Source of the DNA: Tetrahymena thermophila SB210
Lineage: Eukaryota; Ciliophora; Oligohymenophorea; Hymenostomatida; Tetrahymenidae
Assembly: GCF_000189635.1 (NCBI RefSeq)
Contig: NW_002476418.1
Location: forward strand, 496,001-560,000
Length of the DNA: 64,000 bases
Direction: 5' to 3'
Made by a program: the position numbers and the translations under genes. Below the pieces are notes generated by a model that did not search any database, was not told the origin of the DNA, and saw only the letters and a list, made by a program, of their open reading frames with translations. Numbering within the stretch: position 1 is the first letter of the stretch; every line of letters begins with the position of its first letter. Shown one piece after another: positions 14,450 to 64,000 of the stretch.

Positions 14450-15676
14450 TCATAAAGTTAGTATAACATATAATCCAAATAAGATGGATATAAACTGTAA
14501 ATGGATTTTATGTGATTATAATTAAATAATACCTCCACAACCATTAAAATCTGAATTTACACTACTGCTTTAGCAATCGTTGCACCATTAGCTTGTATAT
14601 TAACCTTACTTAGGATTAATAGAGCAGTTGCTTATAATACAACCACTTTTGTTTGAATTTGGATATGCACCAACCTATGAGCAAACTTAACACCAGCTTG
14701 CAGTATAAGATCCTGAGGCTATAGCGCTGCTACAATTTAAAAGTACACAATTAGATTTATCAGAATCAGCATATGGAGTAAAAGGTTAGCAGTCACTGCA
14801 CCATTAGTTTGTAAATTTTCCTTAGCTTGGCATAGATTAACAGTTACTAACAACACAAGAATTTGAGTCTGAACTAGCATATTATCCACTTGAAGAGCAG
14901 GCTGAGCACCAGTTGCTTGTTACTTTACCAAAGCCAGGATAAGCTTAGCAATTTTAATCAATACAAGCTGTATTGAGTTAATTAGCAAACGGTGTTGATA
15001 GCTGACAATCGCTACACCATTAATTTGAAAATGATCCAGAACTAGGTGCTTTAGAGCAATTGCTAACAACACAAGAGTTTTTATCAGTACTTACATTTTT
15101 TTTGGTAGAATTACAATCACTGCACCACTAATTAGAAAATGCTCCTGCGCCTGGCGTTAATGAACAGTTGCTAACCACACAAGAGTCGTTATTAGGACTT
15201 GCATATTAAACAGATGAAGAACAACTAGAGCACCATTCATTTGTGTATTAACCTGATGTTGGGGTAGTTGAACAGTTTTAGGCATTGCAGCCTGTATTAT
15301 CTTTATTTGCATAGGGAGTTGATGCATCAGAACAATCTGTGCACCACTAATTTGAGTAACTACCTGAGATTGGAGTTGAACTACAATCTGACCATATGCA
15401 TTTAGTTCCCGTTTTGTTAGGGAAAGGATTATAAGGAATACACGAAGTGCACCAGTCTAAGGTATATATATTAGGAACTATTGTGCAATCCTAGACTTAA
15501 CATGTGTTATAATCTCCAGATATATACTTTCCACTATAACCTGGACTTTGTGGCTAGCAATTTACACAATTTCCAGCAGAATTTTAGCATGTCATCCAAG
15601 AACCAGAAAAAACACCTTAGATGGTAGTAATCATCATCATCAACAATAAAATCACTGAGAGAATTTCTTTTTTCAT
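14450..15676 (-). CDS. Cys-rich repeat surface protein, probably GPI-anchored (i-antigen-like)
   Basis: One exon, 408 residues, ATG 15676-15674 to TGA 14452-14450. It opens with a signal peptide (MKKEILSVILLLMMMITT). It then carries about nine imperfect repeats of 35-50 residues built on the pattern NC-(S/T/A)-x-P-x-x-G-x-(Y/F)-x-(N/S)-x-WC-x-x-C, with many Ser, Thr, Asn and Gln. The C-terminal 20 residues are hydrophobic (FISILFGLYVILTL), preceded by a small-residue site (FNGCGG). That end suggests replacement by a GPI anchor. This layout matches the immobilisation antigens that coat ciliates such as Tetrahymena, whose genes are expressed alternatively with temperature or other cues. I infer surface-coat function from architecture only, not from identity to a particular Ser gene. 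Confidence 0.88.
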
Positions 15677-17695
15677 TTTCCTTGATATTAAAATTTTGAA
15701 ATTTATTTGATTGGCAATATATTTATTATATACTATTGTTTAGGTTTTTAGCTGGTACACTTTTGATATTACTTACAAATAAATTAAGATATTTGATTTA
15801 AATATTTATTTACTCATTTTGCTTTCAAAAAGAAATTTTAAACAAACTATTTGCTGATTATTATCAAAATCAATTTTTAATTAACTTTTCATAAAGTAAC
15901 TCAAACATTCTATATTTGATCAGGTTTCTTATTATTTAAATTAAATTAAAAAGAAACTGTTTATAAATATGATTTAATATATATACTCCATAGTTTTCAT
16001 TTATTTTATTTGATCCCCATTAATAAAAAATTTAAGTTTTTAACCTGTCATTTGGTAAATAAAAGCTTATTCTATCAATTTTCTTAACAAAATTAAACAG
16101 TATTTAATTTACCACAATTTTTTTATTGTTTTTTATATTAATTAAATTTACTGCCTATTATCTATCAGAATTCTCTCGAATTATTTTCTCTGACAATCAC
16201 AATTAAGTAACCTTATTAAATCAATTGATAATTTCAGATTATTTGTTTCTCAAATCTATTTTCTTTTAGCTATTTCTCTCTCTCTCTAATAATCTCAAAA
16301 TGATTAATTTGTAAATTATAACTAAAATTCTTGAAAGTTAATCATAATTGTTTACTTGATTAAATTTATGAGATAATGCTAATCCAATATTTCCTAAAAC
16401 AAAATTTAACAAATTATTTCATTTTAGAATTTTATGTATTTTAAATAAAAAAAACATATTTAAAAATAAAATCTACTTTTTTTATTTATTTTGTCAAAAC
16501 AAAAGTAGCTTTTCTCATTAAAAATAAGTATAGGTAGGATCAAATAACTTAAAAAATAGATATTTCCTCTTTACATTTTCTTTTTCATAACAAAATTAGT
16601 AGGGTTATCCCAGAATATTTATAAATTTTAATCCTTCTTATCTAAACAGTTATTTGTCTTCTCTCTTACTCACTATCATAATCACTACAACTATCTTCTG
16701 GATTATAGTTGTCTTATTTGATGTTGATTAATGCTTTACTTATCTCCTCTTTTAAAAACTAACAAACAAATTCTATTTTTTATATATTTATTTTCTATGT
16801 TTTTCAAATAATACCAAATAAATGGCATAAAATTCAAACTTCGTTCTTATTATTAATTCAATTTACTAATAGTAAAAAACATATTTAAATAATTAGCTTT
16901 TAAAACAAAAAGTAAAATATAATTTTGATCAATTTAGTTTCGGTTCGACTCAGTTAGGTTTAAAAAATGGTTTGGTTTGAGAGGTGTGAAACTCTATTAA
17001 TTAATACAAAAAAAATTGTTAATTAAATAAAGATAAAATTTTTTTAAAGTGTTATTTTCAATGTTATTTTTCTAATTTACTGCTTTTTAAGTTTCATTAC
17101 ATTATGAAGAAGAATAGCATAATTATTCAATTTATATTGGATTATCTAATATTTTTTTTTACTTCTGAAATTATTATTAAATTATGAATTAACCAAGCTT
17201 AGATTCTTAAGAAAAATTACTTGAAATTAAAATATATTAATAATTATGAAAAATATTTCATTTTATTTTTAAAAATTATTTCTATTTAATTTGGCTTGAG
17301 AGAAGAAAAAGTTTTATCATTTTAATTTAAATTAAAAACATTTGCTTTGCTGAAATTAAATTAAGCTAAAAAAAATTATAAAAAATGGTGGCCTTAAATA
17401 AATTTCAGAAATTGTGAATAAATAAAATTTACTTTATTTGTTAATATATTATTTAAATATCAATAAATTAATGAAGATTAATTAAATAATTACTTATTTT
17501 AACTTTTTAATAAACATGATTTACTCATTATATGTATTAAATGTAAAAAGCTAATAAATTTCAAAGGATATTTATTTATTATTTGATTATAGTTCTACCA
17601 ATAATTAGTAACAAAAATCAATAATTTGTCTAATTAATTAAATCAAACAAGTTTTATAAAAATAATAATAAGATCTAAAAATTGAACTGATAAAA
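15677..17695. other. Intergenic between divergent genes, one unresolved open patch
   Basis: A+T rich, with a CT microsatellite near 16275-16287. On the minus strand between about 16480 and 16760, frames stay open under the ciliate code and one reads NPEDSCSDYDSEQERR, unlike the surrounding sequence. At this base composition open frames of such length are expected by chance. A possible small exon, not called as a gene. Confidence 0.4.
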
Positions 17696-19903
17696 ATGAG
17701 AAACTGTATGTTCGATTTGTTTTCATCTCATTTTTTTTTTAAAGTTAATGGAAAATCTATAAAGCAAGGAACATCTTTAGGTTCATTTGTCTCTTTTGTC
17801 ATTATTACATTGGGAATTAGTTATTTATGCTACCTCTTGAATTAGTACTTCAATAATTAAATAGATCCAAATTATAGAGCATAAAATTTTACTAATAACT
17901 AGTCAATTGATTTAGATTTATCAGATGACTTAATATCCTTCAGATTCGAATACGATTATAACTTAAGCGTTGATGTTTTGTAGGCTTAGACAAATAAAAC
18001 TTATGTAGTTTACATGGCTTATTTTATTTAACTTCAATAATCTGGTTATTAGATGATCCCAATTAATATAGTAAAATGTAAAAATCCTAAATTACTAGGA
18101 TATAACTGCATAGATTATTCTACAATTTCTAACTCAACTTTGCTGTAAGATAGCATTGAAAACATTCAGACGCAGATTTAAATATTTGTTTATGGATGTC
18201 TAGATTAAGATTTTCAGAAAACAACAATTCCTAATAATTGTGCTCAGTAATCAGAAATTAATGATGTAATTAATGGAATTAATGCTTTCTTCAAGCTATA
18301 AATAAAGACTTCTTAGTATAATGTCAAGTCAAAGCAATTTCAAACAGCCTACAGGAGTTCACAAATTTTTACTCTAACCAGCTAGTATATACAAAGTACT
18401 TTGAAAATTTAAAAGTAAATAACTACTGTGAAAGAAGGATTCTTTTTTTAATCTGAATTAACTTAAGAATCTCCTTAATAATATGATTTAGAAGTATAAA
18501 CACTAGATAGATAATCAGCTATTTAGTTGATGAATCTATAGTGCTACTGTTAATCAGGTGTAATTGTAGATTAATTATACCAGCAAGTTCAAATTTAATA
18601 TCCAACAATCCCATCTATTCTAGCACTAGCAAATAGTGTTTTTTCAATTCTAATGCTACTAGGATTCATAGGTAGAAGATTTTCTCTTAAATTAATAGAT
18701 AAAAAATTTTTTATGATTTTATTTCAAAACATATTCCAATAATCCTATATTTAAGTTCTTAGCTTAAATAACTTGCTAGAGAAAAAAATGGAAAAAAACT
18801 AGTAAAATAATTTATAAAATGAGCAAATTTAAAGAAAAACAGATGAATCAGAAGAAATTAATATTTAGAAAGAGAACGAAAGTGCCATTGATAAGTCTAA
18901 CAGCTTATCTCCCCCGCTTTATTTTAAACCAATGAAATTATTGAACATGCGAAATTCTGTGAATAATAAAGATGAACACAATTCATCTGGAAAAATAGAC
19001 TTTTAGCCTTCCCAAAAACATATTTCTGAATTAAATATTCCTAATATTTTAACTTTTTAAGATTAAAAAGAATCATTAGAAGAAACTTGTAATTAATCAA
19101 AAGAATTCCTTTAAACTAAAAATAAATTTTAAGAGAAATTATTTTAAAACGAAAGATCATTTTACTCATAAAATGAGTAGAAAATTAACAGGATTAAAGT
19201 AACGAGCATTTCACTTTTCGAATAGAGATAAAAGAGTAATAGCAAGTATTTGAAAACAAAGAAGTTAATTTATGAGAAAAAGTAATTTTAAGAAGATTTC
19301 AGCAAATACAACCAAATAATCAAATCTCTTCAAAGCAGAAAGGCTTAGATTGAACTCTAAAAAATTTTAAACAAATCTAGGTATATTTTTTACATATAAC
19401 TAATTAGCTAAATAAATATATAAATAATTTATAAAAAGAATTCTTTCAAGAAACAGCAAGGAAACTAAATCAAAAAACTTGAATGACATTCAAAAATAAA
19501 ATATTTAGAATTTACTAGATAGAGAACTTGATATTTATTAGTTTTATGAAGATATTTTGTTTCTCAAAAAGGCTGTAATGATTTTGCTGAGCTAAGATTA
19601 GTTGGCTGCTTTGAAACTAGTAGGATGCTCTTCCTAATTTCTTGAACTTAATTTAAAAGAGCTAGAAGAGAGCTAACTTTAGTTGTGTAATTATAAAATA
19701 AAAATAATTCTTAAAGCTTATTTGATTATTTAAAATTAGAAAAAAACTTGAGCCATTTTGAAGAATAATTTGCAATTTAGTTATCAAATGAATTAAAAAT
19801 AGAAAACATTAAAAAATTCTTACAAAAATGCTAAAACAAAAACAACTTATCAGACATAGATCTTAGAATAATTTCTTCAATTTCTAGCAGTTTAAATCTT
19901 TGA
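17696..19903 (+). CDS. Two-pass membrane protein, tandem paralogue A
   Basis: Exons 17696-19380, 19439-19686 and 19740-19903 give 698 residues. An N-terminal segment FDLFSSHFFFKVNGKSIKQG precedes a first membrane span at about residues 28-52. An outside domain of about 250 residues follows, with scattered cysteines (KCKNP, YNCIDYS, YGCLDQ, NNCAQQ, CYCQSG). A second span lies near 307-330 (SILMLLGFIGRRF). A long charged, Ser/Lys/Gln-rich cytoplasmic tail ends in a helical conserved block (DRELDIYQFYEDILFLKKA, LVGCSSQFLEL). I recognise it as one of the large ciliate-specific families of uncharacterised two-span proteins; no function is known to me. The neighbour at 20819 is a close paralogue and supports both the start codon and all splice sites. 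Confidence 0.9.
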
Positions 19904-20818
19904 AAAAATTATATTATTACTTTTTAATAAATATTTTAATTATCCTTAAATAATTCCTTTATAATTATAATCAATTTACTTACTAAATATAGCTAGCTAG
20001 TCCGTCCTGAATTTAAAATATCATTTTTATGTTTTTAAATTAATTTTGTTTATTCTAAATCAAACTGTATTATTTTATTTTTCTAAAAGTTTAATTATTT
20101 TTGTCAAATTTCAATTGAATGTAAAAAATTATTATTTACGAAAATTATAAAAACCTTAAAAAAATTAAAAAAACAAGAGAATGAGGTAAAGAAAATGAAA
20201 TAAAAAAAATAATAATTTAAAATGTAAAATTAATAAATTAAATTAAGATTTTTAATAAAAGTAAAATTTATTTTAATTTTAATTACATATTTTTAAAAAA
20301 TTTTAATTAAAAATAAATAACATTTTCAGTAATAAAATTTCTTTTTTATTGGCTCTTTATAGCCTTCTAAGTCATTTTATGTTAAAGAATACTGATCAGT
20401 TACTACTTTAAAAAAAAAAACAAATATTATAATGAAAATTAAATAATTAAAGCATATTTTCATTATCGTTCTTTCTGATATATTATTTGATGATAAATAA
20501 TTTATGATTAAATATTAAATATATAAAAGATTTAAAATAATAATAAAATATATAACACAGACGATATATTGTTAGATCTAATTATCACCTCAAAAAATAC
20601 AAAAAAATTTCTATTCTTACTTTATTTAACTTTACATTTGCACATAGTAATCAATAAAAATTATAATCTATTAATATAAAAATAAATTGGTACTATCTTG
20701 AATCAATAGCAAGTACTATACTTCTACTATTGATAAATAATAATTAGAAAAAAGCAGCTAAGTATTAATTAAACTAATTATTAAGTAATTAATAATAATA
20801 AATACATAATAATCGCAA
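19904..20818. other. Spacer between tandem paralogues
   Basis: About 0.9 kb of A+T-rich DNA holding the 3' end of paralogue A and the 5' region of paralogue B. No coding remnant or mobile element recognised. Confidence 0.55.
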
Positions 20819-23010
20819 ATGAACCAATACAAATTTGATTTATTTTCATCTCATTTCTTTTTTAAAGTTAATGGCAAATCTATAAAATAAGGAACATCTA
20901 TTGGATCCTGTCTATCCTTCCTAACTTTCTCCTTTTTTCTGATCTATTTATTGTATCTCTTGATTCAGTATTTCACTAATTAAATAGATCCAACTTATAG
21001 AGCACAAAATTTCACTAACAATGATTCTGTGCATTTAGAGTTAGAAAATGATTTAATATCATTTAGATACGAATCTGACTATAATTTAAGTATTGATGTC
21101 TTGTAAGCTTAGACAAACAAAACTTACATTGTATACAAAGCTTATTTTTTATACACTAACTAAACTAATTACGAAATGATTCCAATTAATATTATCAAAT
21201 GCAATAATCCTAGCTTGGAGGGATTTTACTGCTTGGATTATTCTATGCTTTCTAACTCTACTTTAGTTTAAAATAACATTGAAAAAATTCAGTCGCAAAT
21301 TTAAATATTTGTTTATGGGTGCCTTGATATAGATTTCCAAAAAACAACTATCCCAGATAATTGTGCAAGTTAATAAGAGATAGATAATCTATTTAATGCT
21401 ATTAATTCTGCACTTAAAGTATAAATAAAAACTACTTAGTATAATGTCAAGTTAAAATAATTTTAAACAGCCTTCAGATATTCTCAACTTTTTACTTTAT
21501 CCAATTAATACTTATAAGGAACACTAAAAGTTTAATAACAAAAAACTACTGTCAAATAAGGTCTATTTTTTTAATCTGAAACAAACAAAGCATCTCCTCT
21601 CCAGTATGATTATGAAGTATAAACACTAGATAGAAGTTCAGCGATTTAGTTGATGAATCTATCCTGCTATTGTTAATCTAGTATTGTTATAGATTAATTA
21701 TACTAACAGGTTTATATCCAATATCCAACAATCCCTGCAATTCTTGCAATAGCAAATAGTATGCTTTCAATTATGTTGCTACTAGGATTTATTGGTAGAC
21801 GTTTTTCCCTAAAAATAATTGATTAAAAATTTTTCATGATACTGTTCTAAAATTTATTTCAATAATCCTATCTTTAAATTCTCACCTAAAATAAATTAAT
21901 TGAAAAGTATCAGGACTAAATTTAATAACCCAATAAATAATAATAAAGTCAACCTATGCTAGACAAAACTAGTGAATCAGAGGAAAGAAGTGGCTAGTTT
22001 GAAAATGAGAGCGTCATAGATAAGTCAAATAGTCTATCTCCTTGTATATATTTTAAACCAATGAAAATGTTGAATGTGCAGAATTAAATAAGGAACAAAG
22101 ATGAAACCTTTCAATCTATTTTAATGGAAAATTAGGCTTAGCAAAAAGATGAAAGAATTTTATCTTTTTAAAGTTAAAAAGAACCAGCTGCAGTTGAGAG
22201 CTGCAATTAATCTAAAGAGATTCATAAAAAGGAAAATAAATTTTAAGAGAAATAATTTAAAAACAAAAGTTGTTTTTAAAAGTAAGTGTTAGAAAAAAAT
22301 AATAATATCAAAAATAATAATTAGGATATACATGTGTAAAAAAAGTAAAATCCTTGCAAGAACTAATAAAATAAAACTTTGATTTAAAATAAAAATTAAT
22401 AATAAGATAATAACAAATATAATTTGATAATAAAATCTCTTTAATGTAATAAAATTGAGTAACAACTCAAAAAAATTCTAAATTAATCTAGGTATTTTTT
22501 CTTTTAAAAAATGAAATTTATTATTAAATATTTTTATAAATAAGCTGCTGTTCAAAAAACAAAGTAGAAGATAAATAAAAAAAATTGAATGATTTACAGA
22601 AATAAAATATTTAGGATTTGTTAGATAAAGAACTAGACATTTATCATTTCTACTAAGATATTTTATTTCTCAAAAAAGCAGTAATGATTCTCTTCAGCTA
22701 AGACTAGCTAGCAGCTTTACAATTAGTAGGATGTTCTTCTTAATTTCTTGAGTAAGATTTCAAGAAGCTTAAAAAAGGTTAACTTAAAACATGTAAATAA
22801 ATTAAAAATAAATTTCTTAAATTAATAAAATTTTTTTTAATTTTAGAAAAAAGTTTGAGTCATTATGAAGAGTAATTTGCAATTTAGTTATCTGATGAAT
22901 TAAAATTACAAAATACAATAAAATTTATAAGGAAGTGTTAAGACAATAAAAATTTAACAAATATAGATTTGAGAATTCTTTAATCAATTTAAAACAGTAT
23001 AGATTCATGA
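20819..23010 (+). CDS. Two-pass membrane protein, tandem paralogue B
   Basis: Exons 20819-22491, 22545-22792 and 22847-23010 give 694 residues. It aligns end to end with the upstream gene: same N-terminal FDLFSSHFFFKVNGKSIKQG, same two membrane spans, same Cys pattern outside, same C-terminal DKELDIY block and LSHYEEQFAIQLSDELK. Exons 2 and 3 have exactly the lengths of their counterparts (248 and 164 nt), and intron phases match (2, then 1). Intron sequences and the cytoplasmic tail have diverged, the tail being slightly shorter and poorer in recognisable motifs. This is a local duplication, old enough to have lost intron similarity. Function unknown. Confidence 0.9.
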
Positions 23011-40132: not shown

Positions 40133-44588
<4,456 letters not shown>

Positions 44589-50420: not shown

Positions 50421-53400
50421 TCAAAAGAAAGATGCAAAAGACTCTGATAATACTAATAATTCTATCACTTTTTCTACCTCTTCAAATGCTATGTAATAGT
50501 AAGCATTTGATGGCTTTATTCCAATAGTCACATAAAGAGGTTTCATTTTCTACATTAAATAAAGTAAGGCTTTAATTTTATTTTTAATAAAAATTATTTA
50601 CTTCTTAAAATTCTTTATTATGATTTCTGTAAAACATTTGGCAAGCACAGAACATATCTTCGTCAGTCATGCTGCTTCCCAATATTAAAATGTAATCTAT
50701 TTTGCCACACTCTATGATTTTCCTTTCTATTAGCAGCTCTGCAACTATTCCCTGTTTTTACAACACAAAAAAAACATATTAATAAAATAAATATGTTTTG
50801 TAAATGTAAAATATAATTAATTAATTAATTAATTACTTTATTTAGATTGCAAGGCCTAACTTCTACACTTTCGTTATGGTGTGATATTTCTAAGTATTTT
50901 AGCTAAGAAATATTAGATTCTAATTGTAGGAATAGTTATTCTGCTTACTTGGCCCCAAAATCTATGTTAACTTTGTTATATTTCCATATTACACTACTTT
51001 CTTTTACTTCTACAGAAGAACCTTGAGTTCTAATAGCATAGCTTTCCATGATTCTATAAACTGGCTCTTTCCAGCTCATATCCAAATCAATTAACCTAAC
51101 CCACTCTGTATTTGGTTTTCCTCCTTCTTAGATCACTTTGTGGAAGTAACCGTTTTCACATATTAATCCCAAACCTTTTACATCTGAAAACCATTCATCC
51201 ATGAAATCTATTGATAGTTCTGTTACTATATAAACCATATTCCTTTTATCAGCACATAGCTTTTTTAAATTCTCAATCATCTTTTCAGAAGGTTTTTAGT
51301 GATGTCTAATTAAATAAAATTAAAATGTTTAAATTCAATTTTTAGTATAATTTATTTATTTATTTATTTACCTTCTTAATTAATACTCTTCAGCTTGAAT
51401 ATACATGTATTTATCTAATGGAACAAGAGTGCCAACGTATCCAAATATTATTAATCTTCTCACACTTTTTCTATAAAACTCTGTTGCTTCTTTGATGTTT
51501 AGCTATTTAAAATATGCAGAATGAGCAACTTTTTTAAAGTTAATTCCTTTGTTTGACCCTGTCATGTTGGCTTGAGACATAAACTTTGCATTCTTTTTTA
51601 GTTCTCCAATATGCTTTTCAATCCATGTGTTAGTGTTGAATTGCTACAAAATTTCAACATCTTTGGAAAGTACTTTTTCCTTTAAGGACAACGAAAGAGA
51701 TTAAATATCGAGTATATTTTTCTCAAATTCATAGTAACTGTTTGGATTGAAAGCTATACAACTTCTGATTTATTTGTAATTGTAAGATCCAAATTTATTA
51801 ATCAATATAAATCCACTTTATTGGTTGGCTAACACATACTCCAAAGGATATATTTCATTTTCTTAGAAAACACTAGTTTTCAAAAATATATCAGCAAGTT
51901 TCATATAAGCCAGTCTTTCTTTGAGAGTCATGTTTTGATAAATAACCAGAAGCGGATTTCTGCTCCTAAAATTTTTTTGAATTTCATTAGCAATCCTGTT
52001 AATGCTTTTCATGAGTTCTTTATTACTATAATTTCCTTGAGTAGAATAATTCTTTTACTTTTAATTAAAATGATAAAAATATTAGATAAATGAAATCAAA
52101 AATATTTTGATACTTCAGGAAGTATGATTTAAATCAATTAAACTTTGAGATCAGGATGATTACACAAAAATCTCTCATATAGTTTAAATTTCAATTCAAT
52201 TTTATTGTTTTCGTGCAAGGTATCCACAGAGAGCATCAGTAATTGATTATCTTGGTTTAATTAATTCACTCTTATTTTTGTCACATATTCTTCATAATAT
52301 TGTTAATGCTTTATGTAATTAATTGCTTTTATATTTACTCCAGGGTTTCTAATGTGGATAATTATTTGGTTTCCCATATAAATTAGTCTTAAATTACCAC
52401 GAATTGACTCATAAGGAAGTTTCAACTTCACTCTTATAAACTTCAAAAAATTTTATGCAGCTTCAAAATTCATAAATGAGACCATATTAGAGCATAGAAT
52501 GGCATTAATGAGCTTTTCTCCAAAAGGAAGTATCATTAACTTATCAATATCAGGGAACTACGAATCATGAAAATAAGCTATACTCAGTTTATTTGCTCTA
52601 CACTATGAAATATAAATGATAGAAAAGATTATCCTGTAATCAGCAATCATAATGTTTGTATCAACATCTATAATCTTACTTATTTACTAAGCAAATATAA
52701 AGCTTATTTTTTTGACTTCTTCAAATATCTTTGAATTATACTCTATAAATCTATATAAATAAATATTAATAAATTAATACTATTATGTTGGTTGATCTAC
52801 AAAAATAATTTATCACAAATTCACAGAGTAATTTTAAATAAATGTTTCACAAATAATTTTTCAAGTAATTTTATTATTCTTTAAAGCAATTTTTCATTAA
52901 ATATTTTTACTATTAATTTTAAGTCTATTTTTCACAAATAATTTTTCTATTAATTTTAAATCTATTCTAAGTAAATTAATTTACGAATTCTTTTAAAGCA
53001 ATCTTTTATTCATTTATTGTTTTTACAATTAATTTTAAATCTTTTTTTTATAAATTAATTTTTCTATTAATTTTAAATCTATTTTTCGTGAATTCATTTT
53101 AAAATTCTTTTAAAGCAATCTTTCATTAAGTAATTTTAAATCATTTTTTTCATATCTTTCAATTTATTTTAAAGTTAATTTTTCAGAAATACTAAAATCA
53201 ATTTTTCAAAAAATCTTTTTATTGAAATTATTGAAAATTGAAAAAAAAAATTATATTCAAATTAAATAAAAAATTTTTTTTATTTTCAATTTAATAAATC
53301 AGCATTTTGCATTTTGAAAAATAGTAAATTATTATTATTATTATTATATATAATATTAAAAAATAAAATTTTAGTTGAAAATGAAAATAAATTAAAAATA

Positions 53401-56400
53401 ATTTTTAAATAAAATTTGTTTAATTAGTGATAAAACTTACCTGAAATGTTAGAGATCAAATTGATTTGTCATAATGTTATCATACATGTTGAAACAAAAG
53501 TTGTTTAGAAAAGAATCAATCATTTCATTCTCCATAAAAACAGGATAAAATCTGTATTTGTACATAAGATAGTTAGCTAACTATAAGAAAAAATGAGATT
53601 TAACTAGAGGTATTTTAAATTATAAATGAATAAATTTACTTTTTCATGCAAATTAGATGGAATTTAATAGTAATTTGGCAAAACACCTACCCATCTCAGG
53701 CTTGTATATGAGTTGTAAAAGTGAAAATAAAGTGAAGACTCTTAGATTTCTTCTTTGAAGGTATCGGTAGCTTGGTCATATGTAACTATAATAGGCAGGA
53801 AAAATGTAGCAAGACAAAGCTCATCTTTTTCAGACATGTTAACAAGAAATTCTTCACTTGCTTCAAAAACAATATCATTTTCTGAAGTTATAAATGAGTA
53901 TTTTTAATTTATAATGCTTTTTTCATGAATTTTTTTCATTTTTTCTTAGAAGAGGGTTTGCAAGGTATGACCGGAAGACTAGAATAGTTTTTCTGCAAAA
54001 ATGGATTCTTATTAAGTAGGTTGTCTTCTTCCTTTTCTAATTTTACTTTTTAGGCTTTATTCACTTTATATAAGACCACATTCATCAGACTTGTTTGAAA
54101 GTGTTCCGCTAACTTTATTCAGGCTTGCCAATTTTTTTTGGCTTTTTTATGATGATAAACCTGATTAATCGCTTTCTTAATCTTTATTATTTCTTAAATT
54201 ATTTTCTTCAAAATCATCCTCCTCTTCCACTCCAGGAGAGTCTTGATCTATCATTTTTTATTTTCGAATTAATTTTTTATGCAGCTCAGGATCTCCTAAG
54301 CTTTAATTATCTGTTTCTTGATCAGTGTCTTTAATTTCCGAAGTTAATCCTGTAAATTGTAAGTTTTTGCGAGGTAAAAGCTTGTTTTTCCTCATATTAG
54401 AATTGAGATCGCTCATTCTATCTAAATTGCTCTCCGATCTTTCTTAATCACTCAAGCTGTCAACATTTAATATGTCTCCATTTTCTCCAATTTTTTAGAT
54501 ATTTACTTTCTTGCCAAACAGTTGTTTCTTTTACGCTCCAGAGGCTTCAATCAGGGAATGATCTTGTGTGCCCATAACCTATACTGTTTGCATAGAATCA
54601 GTATTTTTGAAATTAGATGGATTTAAAAGAGAAGAATTATTAATCTGATTGCCTCTTTAGAGAGCTTTTGTAGTGTTGCTGCTAGCAGCGCTATTAATAG
54701 TGACATTCATTTCATCAAATTCATTCTAAATACTCGCATTTTCATCAAATTCAGATGCAGGTTTGCTACTTGGTTTTATTTATTACTTGCCAAATATTTC
54801 ATATTCTTTAAATTAAGTATTGAATATTGGATTTTTAATGTTCTTTTATAATAATTTTGGAAGTGACTAATCATGACTCAGATTAACGCCTTAACTTTAA
54901 ACTTATTGTTGCTCACCTTTTGATACCTTTTTGATATCTTCATTATCTTAAATATGATTAATTTAGTGGCTTTTTAGAAGCAAAGCATTTGTTTTGATTT
55001 ATTCGTCTGTACCAAATTACTTTTAGTGGTTTGCATTATATAAAAATTATTAACAATTGAGCAAGTGCTGCTAATTATTATAGCTGATGTGATAATTATT
55101 TTATTGACTACTGGGTTATTTCTAATGGTTGTGGGATGGAACCTAAGAAACAGGACTAGCTTGTTCTTTATTTTAGTTTGCGCTTTTATCATCTTTCAAG
55201 TTGAGTACTTAAACCTATTCCTACTCAAAATTGTTATTTTATTGCATCAAGGGTAGTGGAGGTTAAGGAAGTCTTTGTAATTTTTTCTTTACTATTTAAG
55301 TTGAATTATCACTATCATTATTTGTAGCAGGATTATTGTTATTATTATTTTCTTTAAAATTATTTTATTTGTTAAAGTCTATATTTTCATCATGCTCTTC
55401 TATTTTCTTTGCTGCTCCGAAATCAGAATCGTTCGAGGAATCTGTTCCTGCTTGCTCATAAGGAACGAATACTCCCGATATTTTAAATTTATGCACCTTT
55501 ATTTCATCTATATTTAGATATTTAATATTATATATACATTTAAAAATGACAACATCAATAAAAAAAATGTGATTAAACTGGCTTATAATTTTTATTTAAA
55601 ACATATGAGAGTAGTCAAAAAGAGTTAATTTCTTGTAAAATTAAATAATTTTATTCTAAAATATTAGTTTGTTTTGCTAATAAATTGATAGATAGCAAAT
55701 TAGGTAAATTATAAAGTTTCAATAATAGTGTAGTAATGTTATAAATTAATTATGCAAAATATCAAATTCAGAATAATTTTATTCTAATTTCAATAAATAA
55801 ATATACTGTTTGAAAAGACATTAGAGCTGGCATATTTTTTATTTGGAATTTCTCTTCCTGAAAAGTCATTCCACACTGCTTTCAGCGTTACTGATTGATA
55901 CCTGGTTCTGTATTTTCTATTCAAATTATTGGGAAAAACCTCCCATTCTTAGTTGCCTTGTCTTAGCTTTACAAATTTAAATTGAAATTTGGATCCTATT
56001 ATTTAATTGATTTATTTATTTATTCTAAAAAATACTTTTTATTCTTATTTTGTTGCATTTTTTCTAATTCATTTGCTTGGAGACAAATTTAAATTTAAAA
56101 ATATCCAACTTATTAAATGATGAACCTTTGCTTAACTAGATAATTGACAACAAATTATATCGTCTCCATGTTTATATTGTCTGCTAACATAGTTAATTTT
56201 GCTTATTGGTCTTCATTTAATACGCTTGACTATTTTATCTTTTATTTATTAATGTAAAAGTGGTTTACCTTTTTGCAACATCAAAGGATTTTCAGTGTAC
56301 CAATTTGGGTAATTATCATCATCTGTTTTCATTACTATTCCTTTGTATGGATTCCAATTACCTAACTGGGGAGTATTGCCTACGATAATAAGCTATTCCC

Positions 56401-56455
56401 CAAACGCTGTTTTGCATATAATTTCGAACTTAACTTCGCAATCTGCTATGATCAT
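50421..56455 (-). CDS. CBM20 starch-binding protein with degenerate TPS and TPP domains
   Basis: Nine exons: 56455-56269, 55995-55807, 55507-53640, 53580-53441, 52750-52114, 52057-51372, 51305-50837, 50751-50602, 50549-50421; 1484 residues. Residues 6-110 are a CBM20 starch/glycan-binding domain (FGEQLIIVGNTPQLGNWNPY, FQFKFVK, WEVFPNN). A disordered Ser/Asn/Gln linker reaches about 640. The TPS (GT20) region runs to about 1205 (LRWVGVLPNYYQIPSN, SIAYFHDSQFPDIDKLMILP). The phosphatase-like region completes the protein (NMVYIVTELS, LGLICENGYF, ILILGSSMTDEDMF, YVTIGIKPSNAYYY). Key catalytic residues are altered. The TPS block DRLDYxKG reads DTLHENNK, so the Arg and Lys for substrate are gone. 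HAD motif I DYDGT reads GYVGT, losing both Asp. GDD before DEDMF reads GSS. It is probably a regulatory or scaffolding pseudo-enzyme of storage-glycan or trehalose metabolism. Confidence 0.9.
52870..53180. repeat. Three-copy tandem repeat of about 111-117 bp inside an intron
   Basis: Within the 690-nt intron of the CBM20-TPS gene, the motif ATTCTTTTAAAGCAAT recurs at about 52876 (one T fewer), 52987 and 53104. Copies of TATTAATTTTAAATCTATTT lie between them. The units have diverged. Confidence 0.65.
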
Positions 56456-57740: not shown

Positions 57741-60700
57741 TCAATCTTATTTTTTAGAAGACTCCTGCTTTTACTATGTTGCATTCTCATAAATTTCTGA
57801 AGAGTAGAAGTATGTAACATTGCTAGGATCTTAATTTTTAATATAGTTGTATCTATCATTAATTGTTTCATAAGCAAAGCTCTTTACTTAAGAGCTACTA
57901 ATAAATGGAAAGAGAATTTATTTCTTAAATTTTTAAAATCTTTGTTAAATTCTTGCTTGGAAGTTCTTTAGTGAGCCCTCTCCTTTAATAGCATTAGAAA
58001 TAGAGTTAAATTACTACTTTTTGACAGTTTAAATTTCTATTCTCTTGTCCAACTCATTTATAGGATAAAGAATGTTAGGGTCATTAAATATTGCTATTAA
58101 AAACTTCTCTGTAATAGATTTGAAATCATTTTCTTCAATGTCTTATTATATAAATAAATAAATGTAATTAAATTAATAATATATTTTTTTTAGATAAAAT
58201 TAAATTGTTAAAAATAAAAATTTAATATTTTAAATTTTGAAATAGAAAGATTTACCATATTTTTTAAATACCCAGCTCATTTTTCTTTATTCGATAAACT
58301 ATCTTGACATACTCTCACACTCATAGAAAACTGCAGATAATTCTTCTTAAGTGAATTTTATATTACAGTTTGGAGGATTAGGATATTTCTTTTTCCTATC
58401 CTAGATTTGTTTTGACAAGATGCTTTGCAACTTAGCTATGTTTTAACTAATGAATTAACTGGAGCCTTATTGTAAGTCATAATTTCTTTATAAAAATAAA
58501 TCAAAAATTAGATTTTTTTTGAAAAATATAAAAGTAAGTTTTACTTAAAAAGACTCCTAGAGAACTCTTCATATTCACTTTAAGGACCTTAAATTCTTTA
58601 TCTTAGTCTCTCATTATATTCTTCTAACTCTGTGGATTCTAAGTGCGATCTCATCTGTTTATAAATTTAATAATAAATTAATTGTTTCTTGTATATAAAA
58701 TATAATTACCAAAAATTTAACATCCTCAATATCCATGGAGTAGGAATACTATCTTGTAACTCCAGATCCTCTTACTTTCCAAGCAATGAAGGTGTCTATC
58801 TCGGGCTAACGTCCAATTTTTTTGGTTACAAAGAACATAATCTCATCACTTATTGAAGTCAAAATTTTTCTTAAGTAAGCAAAAATTACACTCAGAACTG
58901 CAATTAAAGGATGAATAAAAATCATGCTTATAATACTAACTATAATCTCAAATAGGCCAACAATTAAATCAAAAGAAGCTTTAACAATAGGTAGTCTTTC
59001 AAATGTCTGATATCTCAAATAATCATATGGGTAATAGATTTAGCTGTGTCTAGTAGGAGAATCAAAATCCCACACAAAAATGTGATACAGCCATCTAAAA
59101 ACCAAAGTGATAGGTATCCAAAGCCAGCTTGTTATTGCTAAAGCAAAACTAAATAAGCAATTGAGTATTATTACAATAGGCATCAAAATGCCTACTAAGA
59201 ATATAGCAACAAACAATAATCTAAATACATAGCACTCAATGTATTTCACACCTCTAGCAAAATTTTTGCCAAATAAACCTCTATCTGGTAATGCTTCAAA
59301 ATCTTCCATTGTCTTTTTTATTCCATTTAACGTTGTTTTTAAAATATAAACATATGGATGAAAGTATCCATAGTTCTTTTCCTCTCCAGTCCTATACTCA
59401 ACATACTAATTTTTGATATAAATTTATTTAATATTTTTGCAATTTAATTTCAAATAATAATTTAACATCAATAAAATTTTTTATTAAAAATCCAATATAA
59501 AAAAAAAAATTTATTTTATTTTAATCAAATTTTTTTATTTATTAATTTTCCTCTTTAATTAATCAGAAAAATAGAGAGATACTTCAAGAATAGAAAAATG
59601 TATTTTAAAAACATAAAATAAATTACTGTTCCTCTAGAAAAAGGCTAAGTATAGAATAGACTCTTGAGACCGAATTAGCCATTAATTAGATTTTAAGTTA
59701 GATTGATGAAGACATTGATTGTCCAAACTTTATATCTTAATACTTGCAAAACTACTCTCCAACCAAAAAAGTCAGTGTTTGTTTTGTACTCTTTACCATT
59801 TTCGTATTGATAAAAAGTTACTCCATTGTAATCTTTAGATTGAATGATTTTGTAGGGAGGCATATATTTTTAGAAAGTGCTAAAAACTCTGCAAGGAGTA
59901 GTGCTTTATTGTTGTATTCTTTTGTAGTTGTCATTGTAAATCTGCTTGAAGGCCTACTAAAATTCAGTGAAGCGAACAAATAGTATCACTTCGCTTTTTA
60001 AGTTGGCTTAAGTTAAATCTTTTAGTATTTTTTAATTGCAGTCAACTACTAATTTTTCAATAATTGGTTGCATTTATTCTTTTACCACTCTTGATTTCCA
60101 AAGTTCTACTCTTGACTTAATAGGGTGTTTTTCCTTAATCTCTTTAATTTTCTCAGCTTCCTTTTCGTTAATTTACTTGTTTAGTTCATAGTATTAGCGA
60201 TTTGTAATCTAAGTTGCCTAAATCAAGTTAATTAAGTGCTACTAGACATCCTTTTCTTTGACATATGTGCCACTTTAAATCAAATTGAAAAGATAATTTT
60301 ACTTTTCTTAAAATATCTCCATTAAGGCTTCATCCTCACTTTTATCTGATTTCTCTAATTCCTTTATTTTTTCGGTTTCGTATTTACTAGCCCACTTATC
60401 AAAATCTACGCTTAGCTAGTTAAAATCAGCAACTGCGTTTTAAAATTATTTAATTTCTTTTTCATCTAATTCAAACTTGGACTTATCTCTATAATACTAA
60501 GACTTAAATACGAACTCAAAGAAAGAAACACGCATTTGCTAATGGTGCTGCTTAAGAGTGGCTTTCATTCTCTCCTTAAGAATCTCACTGATGACTTGCT
60601 GCTTTGAGTAAATTTAAACTTTCTTTATACCAAAAGTTAGATTCAAAGCCTTTGAGAAGAGAGACAAAATTGTCTAGAACCCATCAACTAGATTTGGGTT

Positions 60701-61411
60701 TAAGATTTGTGATTTTAAAAAGTAATTTCTAGCAAATTTAGGAGTAATTCTGCATTGTATTTGCAATAATTAATGCCATGCCACACTAAGAGCCTACTAA
60801 AAGCTTTTTGTAATTTACTCCTCTCCTCTTATAATCCAATCATTTATTTTCCAAGTAGTGACCTGGTCTTCAGTTTGACCTTGCACTTAGAATTCACCTT
60901 TCTTAATTAAATTGAAAAAAATTGTATATTAAGTTAAAATTTCTGATAATTAATCAATATATTTTAATAATTATTATTGTATATCATTTTAGAATTTTTA
61001 TTACCAAATTTAGATAGAATTATTAATAAAGTTATTAAAATAAATTACTTGCTTAATCTACAAGCATTGATCAGGAGTTAATTTTTTCATTTCGCTTGTT
61101 CCAATCTCCTACTTAGGTTAAAAGAACTGAATGGGAGCTTCATTTCCAGTAAACATAGTGGAAGGTAAGTTGAACTGCCAATTATTCACATTGTCCCATG
61201 TATAAAGGTGAGTTTCAAGTACTTTATCTATTTATTCAACAAGATTTTGGATATCTTTATTGCTTTTTTCAAGTTCTTTTCTGCTTGAGTGGTAAAGCTA
61301 AGAAGGCTTCACTTATGACTTAGTTGGTAGATTATAAACATTTTCGTCATCTAAACTGAAAGGAGCAATGTTGCTATCGCTTTATCTAATTAGATTTTTT
61401 TCCTCTTGCAT
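57741..61411 (-). CDS. Multi-pass membrane protein of unknown function
   Basis: Exons 61411-61049, 60901-59627, 59405-58710, 58654-58545, 58485-58256 and 58141-57741 give 1024 residues, ending in TGA. Residues 1 to about 480 are hydrophilic and mostly helical, with a Trp-containing stretch (VTTWKINDWIIRGEE) and a coiled-coil-like part (EKEAEKIKEIKEK). A semi-hydrophobic segment at about 490-515 (FFGWRVVLQVLRYKVWTINV) is followed by two strong membrane segments at about 598-655 (LLFVAIFLVGILMPIVIILN, ITSWLWIPITLVFRWLY). Another hydrophobic hairpin lies at about 694-726 (LIVGLFEIIVSIISMIFI). The C-terminal 300 residues are charged again. I do not recognise the family; a conserved protist membrane protein is the most I can say. 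All five junctions keep frame (phases 0, 0, 0, 2, 1). Confidence 0.87.
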
Positions 61412-64000
61412 TTATATTTTAGATGTATCTTCCTTTCTATTAATATTTTTTATGTTTATTATTAATTATAAGTAATTAAGATATAAAAACACAAATTTAA
61501 TAAAATTTTGCGAAGTTTGTTTTAATAAAAAGAAAATATCGATTGAATGAATATATTTTTTCTATCAATGTTTAATATGTAAGATAAATCCTGAATTGGT
61601 GATGCAAACATAAAAACTGATTTTAGAAAAATCAACTATTTTTTTTAATATAAATTAATTAGATAATCACGCTTTCAAAACACTTAGCAATATCCTATTT
61701 ATCTTTGGGGATATTTTACACTTTGAGATATGAATAACGATAATATTAACTTCATTATATACTAATTAATTAAAATAGAGCAAAATTAATTTGAAATATG
61801 ACATGCATGCGTCATGATAAATAATGTGAATCTTTCTATATCTTCAACTTTTAAGACTTTATAAATTCTGGTTTGAGAAATTTCATAAAAAAAGAAAAAT
61901 TAAAATTTTAGGTCAAAGATTAACAATTTATATTAAGATTATTCAATATCTATTTTGGTAGATGCATCTAATTGCATTTACTGTAAACTAAGTATTTTCA
62001 CATTAACTTGCAAATAAAGTTTGATTTTTTAGCAATAGAAAATATCTTAATTACTAAAATTATCCTTAAGAAAATATTTCTAGATCTTTATTTTTTTAAA
62101 AACTTTAAATTCATTCAGTAGATACGTGATTTAAGTGACATTTTGAGAAAAGTAAAAATTAAAAATTATTTGACAAAATCTTGTAAAAATATTATTTAAA
62201 TTGAGCCTAATTCTTTTAATTTACACTTGATGTTAGTAAAACTTAAATATTACTTTAGAAAAGTTTAATTTATAATAAGATAAAATAAAAAGAAAAATGG
62301 TATTTTAAGCTGATGATACAAAACTTATTTATTATTTTTTAATCAACATCTACTTATTTTTATTAATTACATTTTTGAATCAGGATAGTATGTTTGAAAA
62401 GATAAATCTAAAATATCTCAAAAACTCAAGAGAATCAAAAATAAGAAATAGTTTATAAAATTTGATTCTCAAAAATACTTCAAAGAATTCAAATATTTAA
62501 TCAGCTAGATTATTGATAAAAATAAAATTTTATATCAATTAAATAGTATATTTTATATGAATTAATTCTAAACTTGATGAGAAAATAACTATTTTATTCA
62601 GTTTTAGTATATCTTGATCTATTAAAAAAATCAAAAGGAAATTGAAAATATTTTAAATATTTAAAAAATATGATAAATAATATAAGATTAATATTTGTTT
62701 GTCATAAAATAATCCATTAAAATTTGACGTTAAAATTGAAAATAGAAAGCTATTTATTTTTCATAATTTTGCCTTTCAGAAACCACAGCTAACAAAATTA
62801 TTAGTAAATCCTTTTTTAGAATTTAACTTATAATAAAAAACTATGTAAATAGTACAAAAAAATTTTGTTCCAAAAGATATAAAAATCAAATAAAAGATAA
62901 ATTTTATTAAATGATCAAATTAAATAATGTGCTTACTCTTTCAATAATTATCTAAATTAAATTTTATTTTTAATAAATTTTTATCAATATGATAAAAGAA
63001 GATTTTTTAATCGAAATAAAATAATTTTTTATATTCAAATAATTTAAATTAGATGATAATTTTGATATAAATAAAAGTAATTTGTTAGAACATTTAATTT
63101 TTTTATGTAAAAGAAGCTTTTTAAGTTAATAATTAGAATGATTTACGATGACAAATGAAGACCAAGTAATAAACAGAGAATGTATATAATGAATTAAAAT
63201 TATTGAGATTTAATCTAAAATTTAAATAATAAAAAGTTGAGTTGATAACAATTTCATCCAATATAATTGAATTTATTTTCTTAGTAAATAACTAACTAAA
63301 TAAGATTCTCCTTTTGTATCATAAATTTAATTGATAAGATAGCTTGATACTTAGATATATTGTATCCTGTAATTTACCGATAGAACATAAATTAGTGAAG
63401 CACACACTTGTCAATGTATTCAATCTTAATATTAGTGAAAGTATAATTTCAATGTTTGTTTATAAGCTTGGAAGTCAGCTTAGTATTATAGTTAGGATTT
63501 AAGAATGCTTTATAGATAGTTAGATTGGTTGGTTGATAGATAGATAGATTTATAGATTGTTTAGTTGATAGATTGATTTGTTGCTTCATGTCATATACTA
63601 AATTAAAAAATATATAATAATATATTAGAGATGAGTGATTGATAGATTTTTATAATGTCAAATACTATTTTATTATTAAAAAAATTTATTAAATTCTTTC
63701 ACTTATCCTTAACTTTTAAATATTTAATAGCTCTTGTTTGTTTTTTTATTTATTTATTCACATAATTTTTTATTAAAATAAATTAAAAATCTTACACATC
63801 GTCATCACAGCCAGCTAATTTGATATAAAAAAAATAGTTAATATAAAAGTGATTAAATAAATAATAGAATTGTGGATTAAAATAATGTTATGTATAAAGA
63901 AAGATTATAATTTGAGTAGAAAATTCTTGAAAGATATGTATTAAAATTGAATGATTTTTACATTAAAAGGCAATACATATCAAATTAATTAAAAATCCAG
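61412..64000. other. A+T-rich flank, no gene seen
   Basis: About 2.6 kb with a (GATA/GATT)n tract near 63530-63585 and many A/T runs. A short less A+T-rich patch at about 63795-63820 (ACACATCGTCATCACAGCC) could be a small exon of a gene lying beyond the window, but it cannot be assigned. No telomere repeat at the right edge. Confidence 0.5.
63530..63585. repeat. Degenerate (GATA/GATT)n simple repeat
   Basis: Successive TAGATAGATAGAT and TTGATAGATTGATT units. It is similar to short tracts near 5325 and 27310, a common background repeat of this genome. Confidence 0.6.

Follow-up and report, generated by a model that had tools for sequence, protein, structure and literature searches.

A CBM20 head on a trehalose-6-phosphate synthase/phosphatase with two degenerate active sites: a candidate storage-glucan regulator in a ciliate

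The gene described here encodes a protein in which a CBM20 head precedes trehalose-6-phosphate synthase (TPS) and trehalose-6-phosphate phosphatase (TPP) domains, both of which have lost key residues of their active sites. We consider it reasonably probable that this protein regulates the storage glucan as a pseudoenzyme, a role suggested by analogy with a Toxoplasma protein of the same architecture, and the lost active-site residues suggest energy-storage regulation rather than trehalose making. All positions are those of the window, the whole stretch of 64,000 nucleotides that was analysed, unless another contig is named. A preliminary description of this DNA had proposed a glucan-binding head on a TPS/TPP in which both active sites are missing key residues; the domains and alignments support this, and the observation as a whole was confirmed in that the gene was rebuilt and the domains and quoted motifs were found.

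Gene structure and domain order

The window was read with the ciliate code, in which TAA and TAG specify glutamine and TGA is the stop codon. In the rebuilt model (Table 1) the start codon at 56455 and the stop at 50421 fall exactly at both ends given in the preliminary description, and the eight introns are all of the GT-AG type. The 1482 codons contain no internal stop, whereas chance would place 29 in-frame TGA codons in the gene according to base composition, and 37.5 according to a first-order Markov model (200 runs, minimum 24); because the exons were picked partly by alignment, this open-frame statistic serves as supporting evidence only. GC content is 0.296 in the exons versus 0.076-0.216 in the introns, and ranges from 0.154 to 0.290 in 2-kb steps across the window. 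By eye, intron 4 (52751-53440, 690 bases) appears to contain an A+T-rich phrase (attaattttaaatc...) repeated many times with imperfections.

Table 1. Positions of the rebuilt gene, its domains and motifs, other genes of the window, and three loci on other contigs.
Feature	Position	Strand	Remarks
CBM20-TPS-TPP gene	50421..56455	minus	9 exons, 1482 aa, ciliate code
Exons	56455-56269, 55995-55807, 55507-53640, 53580-53441, 52750-52114, 52051-51372, 51305-50837, 50751-50602, 50549-50421	minus	rebuilt gene model
CBM20 domain	55889..56440	minus	residues 6-98, split by one intron
Linker	53814..55822	minus	residues about 120-690 (about 570 residues), Q/N-rich, 23% Q+N, 15% S+T
GT20 (TPS) domain, degenerate	51596..53708	minus	Pfam and alignment
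IADYRI	52647-52630	minus	TPS domain
FHDSQFP	52572-52552	minus	TPS domain
DTLHENNK	52224-52201	minus	residues 971-978, TPS domain
QENEIYPLEYV	51865-51833	minus	residues 1070-1080, donor motif, TPS domain
HAD motif I	51428..51445	minus	residues 1210-1215, FGYVGT replaces xDxDGT
Trehalose-phosphatase domain with cap	50496..51301	minus	Pfam span
Cap VEVKE	51013-50999	minus	kept
Cap VEVRP	50866-50852	minus	kept
Motif III Lys (LNKG)	spans intron 50836-50752	minus	kept
HAD motif IV	50650..50679	minus	residues 1415-1424, GSSMTDEDMF replaces GDDxTDEDMF
SerH-type surface immobilisation antigen gene	14450-15919	minus	Pfam SerH 2.5e-14
Adjoining paralogous genes	17354-19486 and 20702-22588	plus, plus	similar translations
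DUSP and ubiquitin carboxyl-terminal hydrolase domains	40707-44588	plus	in two reading frames, Pfam
Lips family gene	58611-61564	minus	PF25228, E down to 4.8e-97
Second CBM20-TPS-TPP gene (L015)	contig C22, 492500-501000	minus	both active sites degenerate
Laforin-like gene (L011)	contig C424, about 100357-100623	plus	CBM20, then dual-specificity phosphatase, HCTAGIGR
GH63 gene (L016)	contig C398, 441696-442238		single trehalase-profile match

The spliced protein was compared with the CBM20, GT20 and trehalose-phosphatase profiles, a check proposed in the preliminary description, and Pfam matched all three of the domains it had named in one chain, in the order CBM20, TPS, TPP seen in known CBM20-TPS-TPP proteins. 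The matches were CBM_20 (residues 6-98; E 1.3e-19; 70.2 bits versus a cut-off of 23.3), Glyco_transf_20 (residues 726-1159; E 8.5e-38; 130.7 bits versus 32.5), which spans profile positions 44-472 of 473 with the first 43 unmatched, and Trehalose_PPase (residues 1236-1458; E 2.1e-40; 138.7 bits versus 27; profile positions 17-229 of 235). With the joined residues 710-1482 as query, the NCBIfam equivalog cut-offs were missed by far for OtsA (101.2 bits versus 564.85) and for bifunctional TPS/TPP (217.4 bits versus 634); the phosphatase half passes that of the T6PP equivalog TIGR00685 (69.6 versus 68.05), so that automatic annotation can call such a protein a trehalose-phosphatase. Both enzyme domains would be expected to fold; AlphaFold, run on two single exons, each apart, gave mean pLDDT values of 53 and 34, too low to support a structural reading.

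The CBM20 head keeps W34 (in LGNW), the Lys of FKF and the Trp of EWEV, and its LGNW, FKF and EWE line up with LGDW, YKF and EWE of glucoamylase 1ac0. A W/K/W set is reported to be important for glucan binding in TgLaforin (PMC9254107), and we equate the kept residues with it, the mapping being our own. This retention and the Pfam match bear out the preliminary claim that the CBM20 part keeps its core motifs, and the head can probably still grip a stored sugar polymer.

Elsewhere in the window lie a SerH-type gene, of a family typical of Tetrahymena, a Lips family gene, a DUSP and ubiquitin hydrolase region, and two adjoining paralogous genes that both carry FDLFSSHFFFKVNGKSIKQGTS, the first of which (17354-19486) has no Pfam match. 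The SerH gene and the low GC content of the window indicate Tetrahymena or one of its near relatives. Rfam, applied to the whole window at gathering scores, returned no matches.

Loss of key residues at both active sites

Fifteen TPS positions were inspected against the solved Tps1 chains 5hut and 6jbi, two glycines and a Trp among them being poorly aligned, and two are kept, these being the HDYH Asp and the donor-motif Glu. The side chains R280, K285, H171, D379 and E387, which contact UDP-glucose in Candida albicans Tps1 (PMC5527307), correspond to T, N, D, Q and E in the window protein, so that one of the five is kept (residue numbers obtained by counting along 5hut in the alignment). The His, Arg and Lys and the GMNL loop are lost, and the protein retains two of the nine UDP-sugar sites listed for red algae. 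The reported change of DRLDYxKG to DTLHENNK is present at residues 971-978. For the donor motif, described as changed from GMNL-xxEY to NEIYPLEYV, the altered sequence is likewise there, but the Glu of the motif is kept.

The GDD of HAD motif IV is a metal site. Among 18 TPP positions inspected against the solved TPP 5dxl, 11 are kept, including ExK and EVRP of the cap, the motif III Lys and TDED. In motif I the nucleophile Asp has become Gly and Asp+2 has become Val; in motif II the Ser is replaced conservatively by Thr and the Arg after it by Leu; one His is replaced by Lys; and both Asp of GDD are Ser. These alignments contain both of the phosphatase changes reported at the outset, DYDGT to GYVGT in motif I and GDD to GSS before DEDMF. 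In the Brugia TPP, replacement of either the nucleophile Asp or Asp+2 of motif I abolished detectable activity (PMC4081830).

All four of the quoted degenerate motifs of the two domains sit within exons and have alignable sequence on both sides. A pattern search covered the three minus-strand frames at both TPS/TPP loci of the genome, the second of which is described below. It yielded no match to D.DGT, R[LIV]D..KG, DR[LI]D, GDD..DE or H[DE]YH, and the looser patterns D[YF]D, G[MLV]NL and GDD gave five stray matches, all beyond the modelled enzyme exons. Since none of the canonical motifs searched for turns up in an enzyme exon, whichever minus-strand frame is read, no splice reading was found that restores them, and the alternative splice model that the preliminary description had named as a refutation was thus looked for and not found. 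The TPS/TPP body is open and near full-length, yet judged by its residues it is probably non-catalytic.

A second degenerate copy and the search for trehalose enzymes

The 101 Mb assembly (445 contigs) was searched exon by exon, a procedure by which a very divergent gene could be missed. In the whole assembly the four GT20 matches fall in only two places, the window and contig C22, and the two TPP matches lie there as well; a query of 773 aa covering TPS and TPP of the window protein, run at E up to 10, gave eight matches, all at these two loci. CBM20 has ten matches in the assembly, two in the TPS/TPP genes, one in the laforin-like gene and seven others. The second, intact TPS gene that the preliminary description suggested looking for was therefore not recovered, the sole other TPS/TPP locus being CBM20-headed and itself degenerate. 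Relatives were also sought in viral contigs, where none of 18 pattern matches was confirmed.

The paralogue on C22 matches CBM20 (1.7e-20), GT20 (1.6e-41) and TPP (1.5e-28; profile positions 24-206 of 235, in a gene model whose C-terminus is incomplete); its identity to the window copy is 35% for CBM20 and 26% for each of TPS and TPP. Both CBM20 heads have W, K and W. In the paralogue DRLDYxKG is replaced by DSISRNSG, the donor motif reads ETRHFHYMEY, the region of motif I reads FGFSS, and motif IV is VGGRKTTDEEM. It keeps two of the 15 TPS positions and seven of 15 alignable TPP positions, the remaining three of the 18, all in motif I, lying in a gap; in the pairwise alignment with the window copy its nucleophile position is Gly. 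It lacks the cap ExK and the Glu of EVRP.

The trehalase profile has one match in the assembly (E 3.3e-4; 24.8 bits versus the Pfam cut-off of 21), which was rejected as a trehalase, the gene belonging to GH63 (2.6e-51 versus 6e-8); a match that passes the Pfam cut-off in this way is a trap for automatic annotation. The GH65 profile has no match in the whole assembly. The same exon-by-exon procedure recovered glycogen phosphorylase, the positive control, with 12 matches on two contigs. The glycogen synthase models GT3 (PF05693), GT5 (PF08323, E up to 10) and glgA (TIGR02095, E up to 1) gave no match in the whole assembly, so either the search misses divergent genes or the glycogen synthase is unusual, and the same caveat attaches to the trehalose-enzyme negatives, for which absence is not proof. 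It should be noted, however, that an intact TPS or TPP would be expected to outscore the degenerate copies that were found, so that the lack of an intact one in the genome is fairly safe within the completeness of the assembly. With two TPS/TPP loci that are both degenerate, a trehalase match that is a GH63 gene and no GH65 match, the searches lend no support to the earlier suggestion that the protein joins stored polysaccharide to trehalose metabolism. Trehalose synthesis may occur in other ciliates, which counts against the pseudoenzyme reading: transcripts annotated as TPS are reported from a rumen species and a salt-lake species is cited as a trehalose user (PMC6925433).

Relatives, alternative explanations and storage-glucan regulation

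The architecture itself is not new: a starch-binding head on a class II-like TPS/TPP is on record in algae, and Toxoplasma has a published protein with the domains in this order. The Toxoplasma gondii protein TGME49/TGGT1_297720 shares the order CBM20-TPS-TPP and the alveolate lineage, but is distant and differs in length (1222 aa versus 1482 aa), and the authors of both papers on it leave its enzyme activity open. The comparison with it covered domain order, lineage and the published phenotypes. The proportion of PAS-positive vacuoles changed on mutation of S1073 but not of S1054, and under bradyzoite-inducing pH only, falling with Ala and rising with Asp, and neither trehalose nor T6P has been identified in this parasite (PMC11414933); of the two phosphosites, which lie outside the domains, one affects amylopectin. 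Two knock-out clones had more glycogen/starch, unlike a knock-out of an unrelated gene, and lower degrading enzymes, with significance varying by enzyme and clone (PMC12607534). The same paper warns that pleiotropic effects are common to unrelated knock-outs and states that assays of the recombinant enzyme failed, which is not proof of inactivity (PMC12607534). The phosphosite and knock-out results lead us to favour a storage-glucan regulator. Against the pseudoenzyme reading stand the TIGR00685 score of the phosphatase half and the red algal PhTPS4, reported to take part in a synthesis despite its changed donor sites.

PhTPS4 also bears on the improbable alternative that the window protein is an enzyme with changed chemistry, using another donor or acceptor like the TPS-like makers of floridoside phosphate in red algae. 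The CBM20-TPSs of red algae, diatoms and a brown alga likewise carry an N-terminal CBM20 before TPS-TPP and have some changed UDP-sugar sites, and PhTPS4, with three altered (G198K, R464D, M564L), has a reported part in (iso)floridoside synthesis (PMC6642608). Other substrates have also been raised by the Toxoplasma authors (PMC12607534). However, PhTPS4 keeps six of the nine UDP-sugar sites, whereas the window protein keeps two (the HDYH Asp and the donor-motif Glu), has lost the His, Arg, Lys and GMNL loop, and has no Asp left in motif I or GDD. PhTPS2 has all nine sites intact and is reported as inactive (PMC6642608), and the behaviour of the two algal proteins means that residue loss does not prove inactivity. 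Decay into a relic without function, which the loss of catalytic residues in both domains of both copies might suggest, appears highly improbable given 1482 open codons in nine exons with eight regular introns, near full-length domains and a paralogue in which all three domains recur. Least probable of all is a regulatory subunit of a trehalose synthase complex resembling fungal Tps3/Tsl1, with an active TPS encoded elsewhere. Tps3 and Tsl1 serve a complex with active Tps1/Tps2 and are not known to carry a CBM20. They have a degenerate TPP-like domain, and the four PDB entries matched by the TPP half include, weakly (E 1.3e-4), 5hus_A, which bears the name trehalose synthase regulatory protein, but the exon-by-exon search found no intact TPS or TPP locus beside which such a subunit could work.

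The strongest of the alternatives, though still unlikely, is that the phosphatase half is a ligand sensor, which would bind but not hydrolyse a sugar phosphate, T6P or some other, and would signal this through the glucan-bound body. The pattern of retention fits, since ExK, EVRP, the motif III Lys and TDED are among the 11 kept TPP positions while the four Asp of motif I and GDD are lost, and the TPP half is closer to solved TPPs (35% identity to two) than the TPS half is to solved Tps1 (20-22% to two). In fungal TPP structures ExK and EVRP reportedly contact the sugar directly. In the Brugia TPP, mutation of cap residue Q332 reduced kcat 110-fold and that of K334 400-fold, while Km was not dramatically altered, and orthologues are stated to have Glu or Tyr in place of Q332 (PMC4081830); these results would favour a sensor if the two residues equal the Glu and Lys of ExK. 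Plant class II TPS proteins are described as catalytically inactive, held to act in sugar signalling and proposed to bind and signal Tre6P (PMC12589705). Against a sensor, the paralogue lacks ExK and the Glu of EVRP, and no T6P-making enzyme was found in the assembly. Class II proteins have a TPP-like C-terminal part. The preliminary comparison with them draws support from the lost TPS residues and from the published branching of PhTPS4 with class II TPS (PMC6642608): AtTPS5-11, like the window protein, are TPS-TPP proteins with altered TPS catalytic residues. They differ in that plants possess class I TPS and TPP that are active, whereas no intact TPS/TPP was found in the ciliate genome, and in that the cited passages on class II mention no CBM20 (PMC12589705), whereas the window protein has a CBM20 head.

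A storage-glucan regulator, the reading that we favour, would act as follows. The CBM20 head would dock the protein on the storage glucan, the long Q/N- and Ser-rich linker would supply reach and possible phosphorylation sites, and the non-catalytic TPS/TPP body, as a scaffold or a sugar-phosphate-sensing surface, would set the rate of glucan building or breakdown. The storage glucan of a Tetrahymena-like ciliate is glycogen. Laforin offers another case of a CBM20 regulator of storage glucan, differing in its unrelated second domain, a dual-specificity phosphatase in which CX5R is kept; laforin has been reported in Tetrahymena thermophila (PMC2714694), and the laforin-like gene of Table 1 has this arrangement.

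In the open-licence literature we recognised no account of a doubly degenerate, duplicated CBM20-TPS-TPP in a ciliate without trehalose enzymes. For alveolate CBM20-TPS-TPP proteins the open question is trehalose making versus storage-glucan regulation only, and a free-living ciliate in which both copies found are plainly degenerate and no trehalose enzymes were detected is a clean test case. We may speculate, as a rather unlikely extension, that the ciliate lineage dropped trehalose synthesis and breakdown and that the TPS/TPP chassis was kept and duplicated as a trehalose-independent, glycogen-bound sensor, one copy reading sugar phosphate through its phosphatase cap and the other serving as a pure scaffold. 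If this were true, storage-glucan regulators with optional catalysis would form an ancient class, and the CBM20 forms of Toxoplasma and algae would be members of it.
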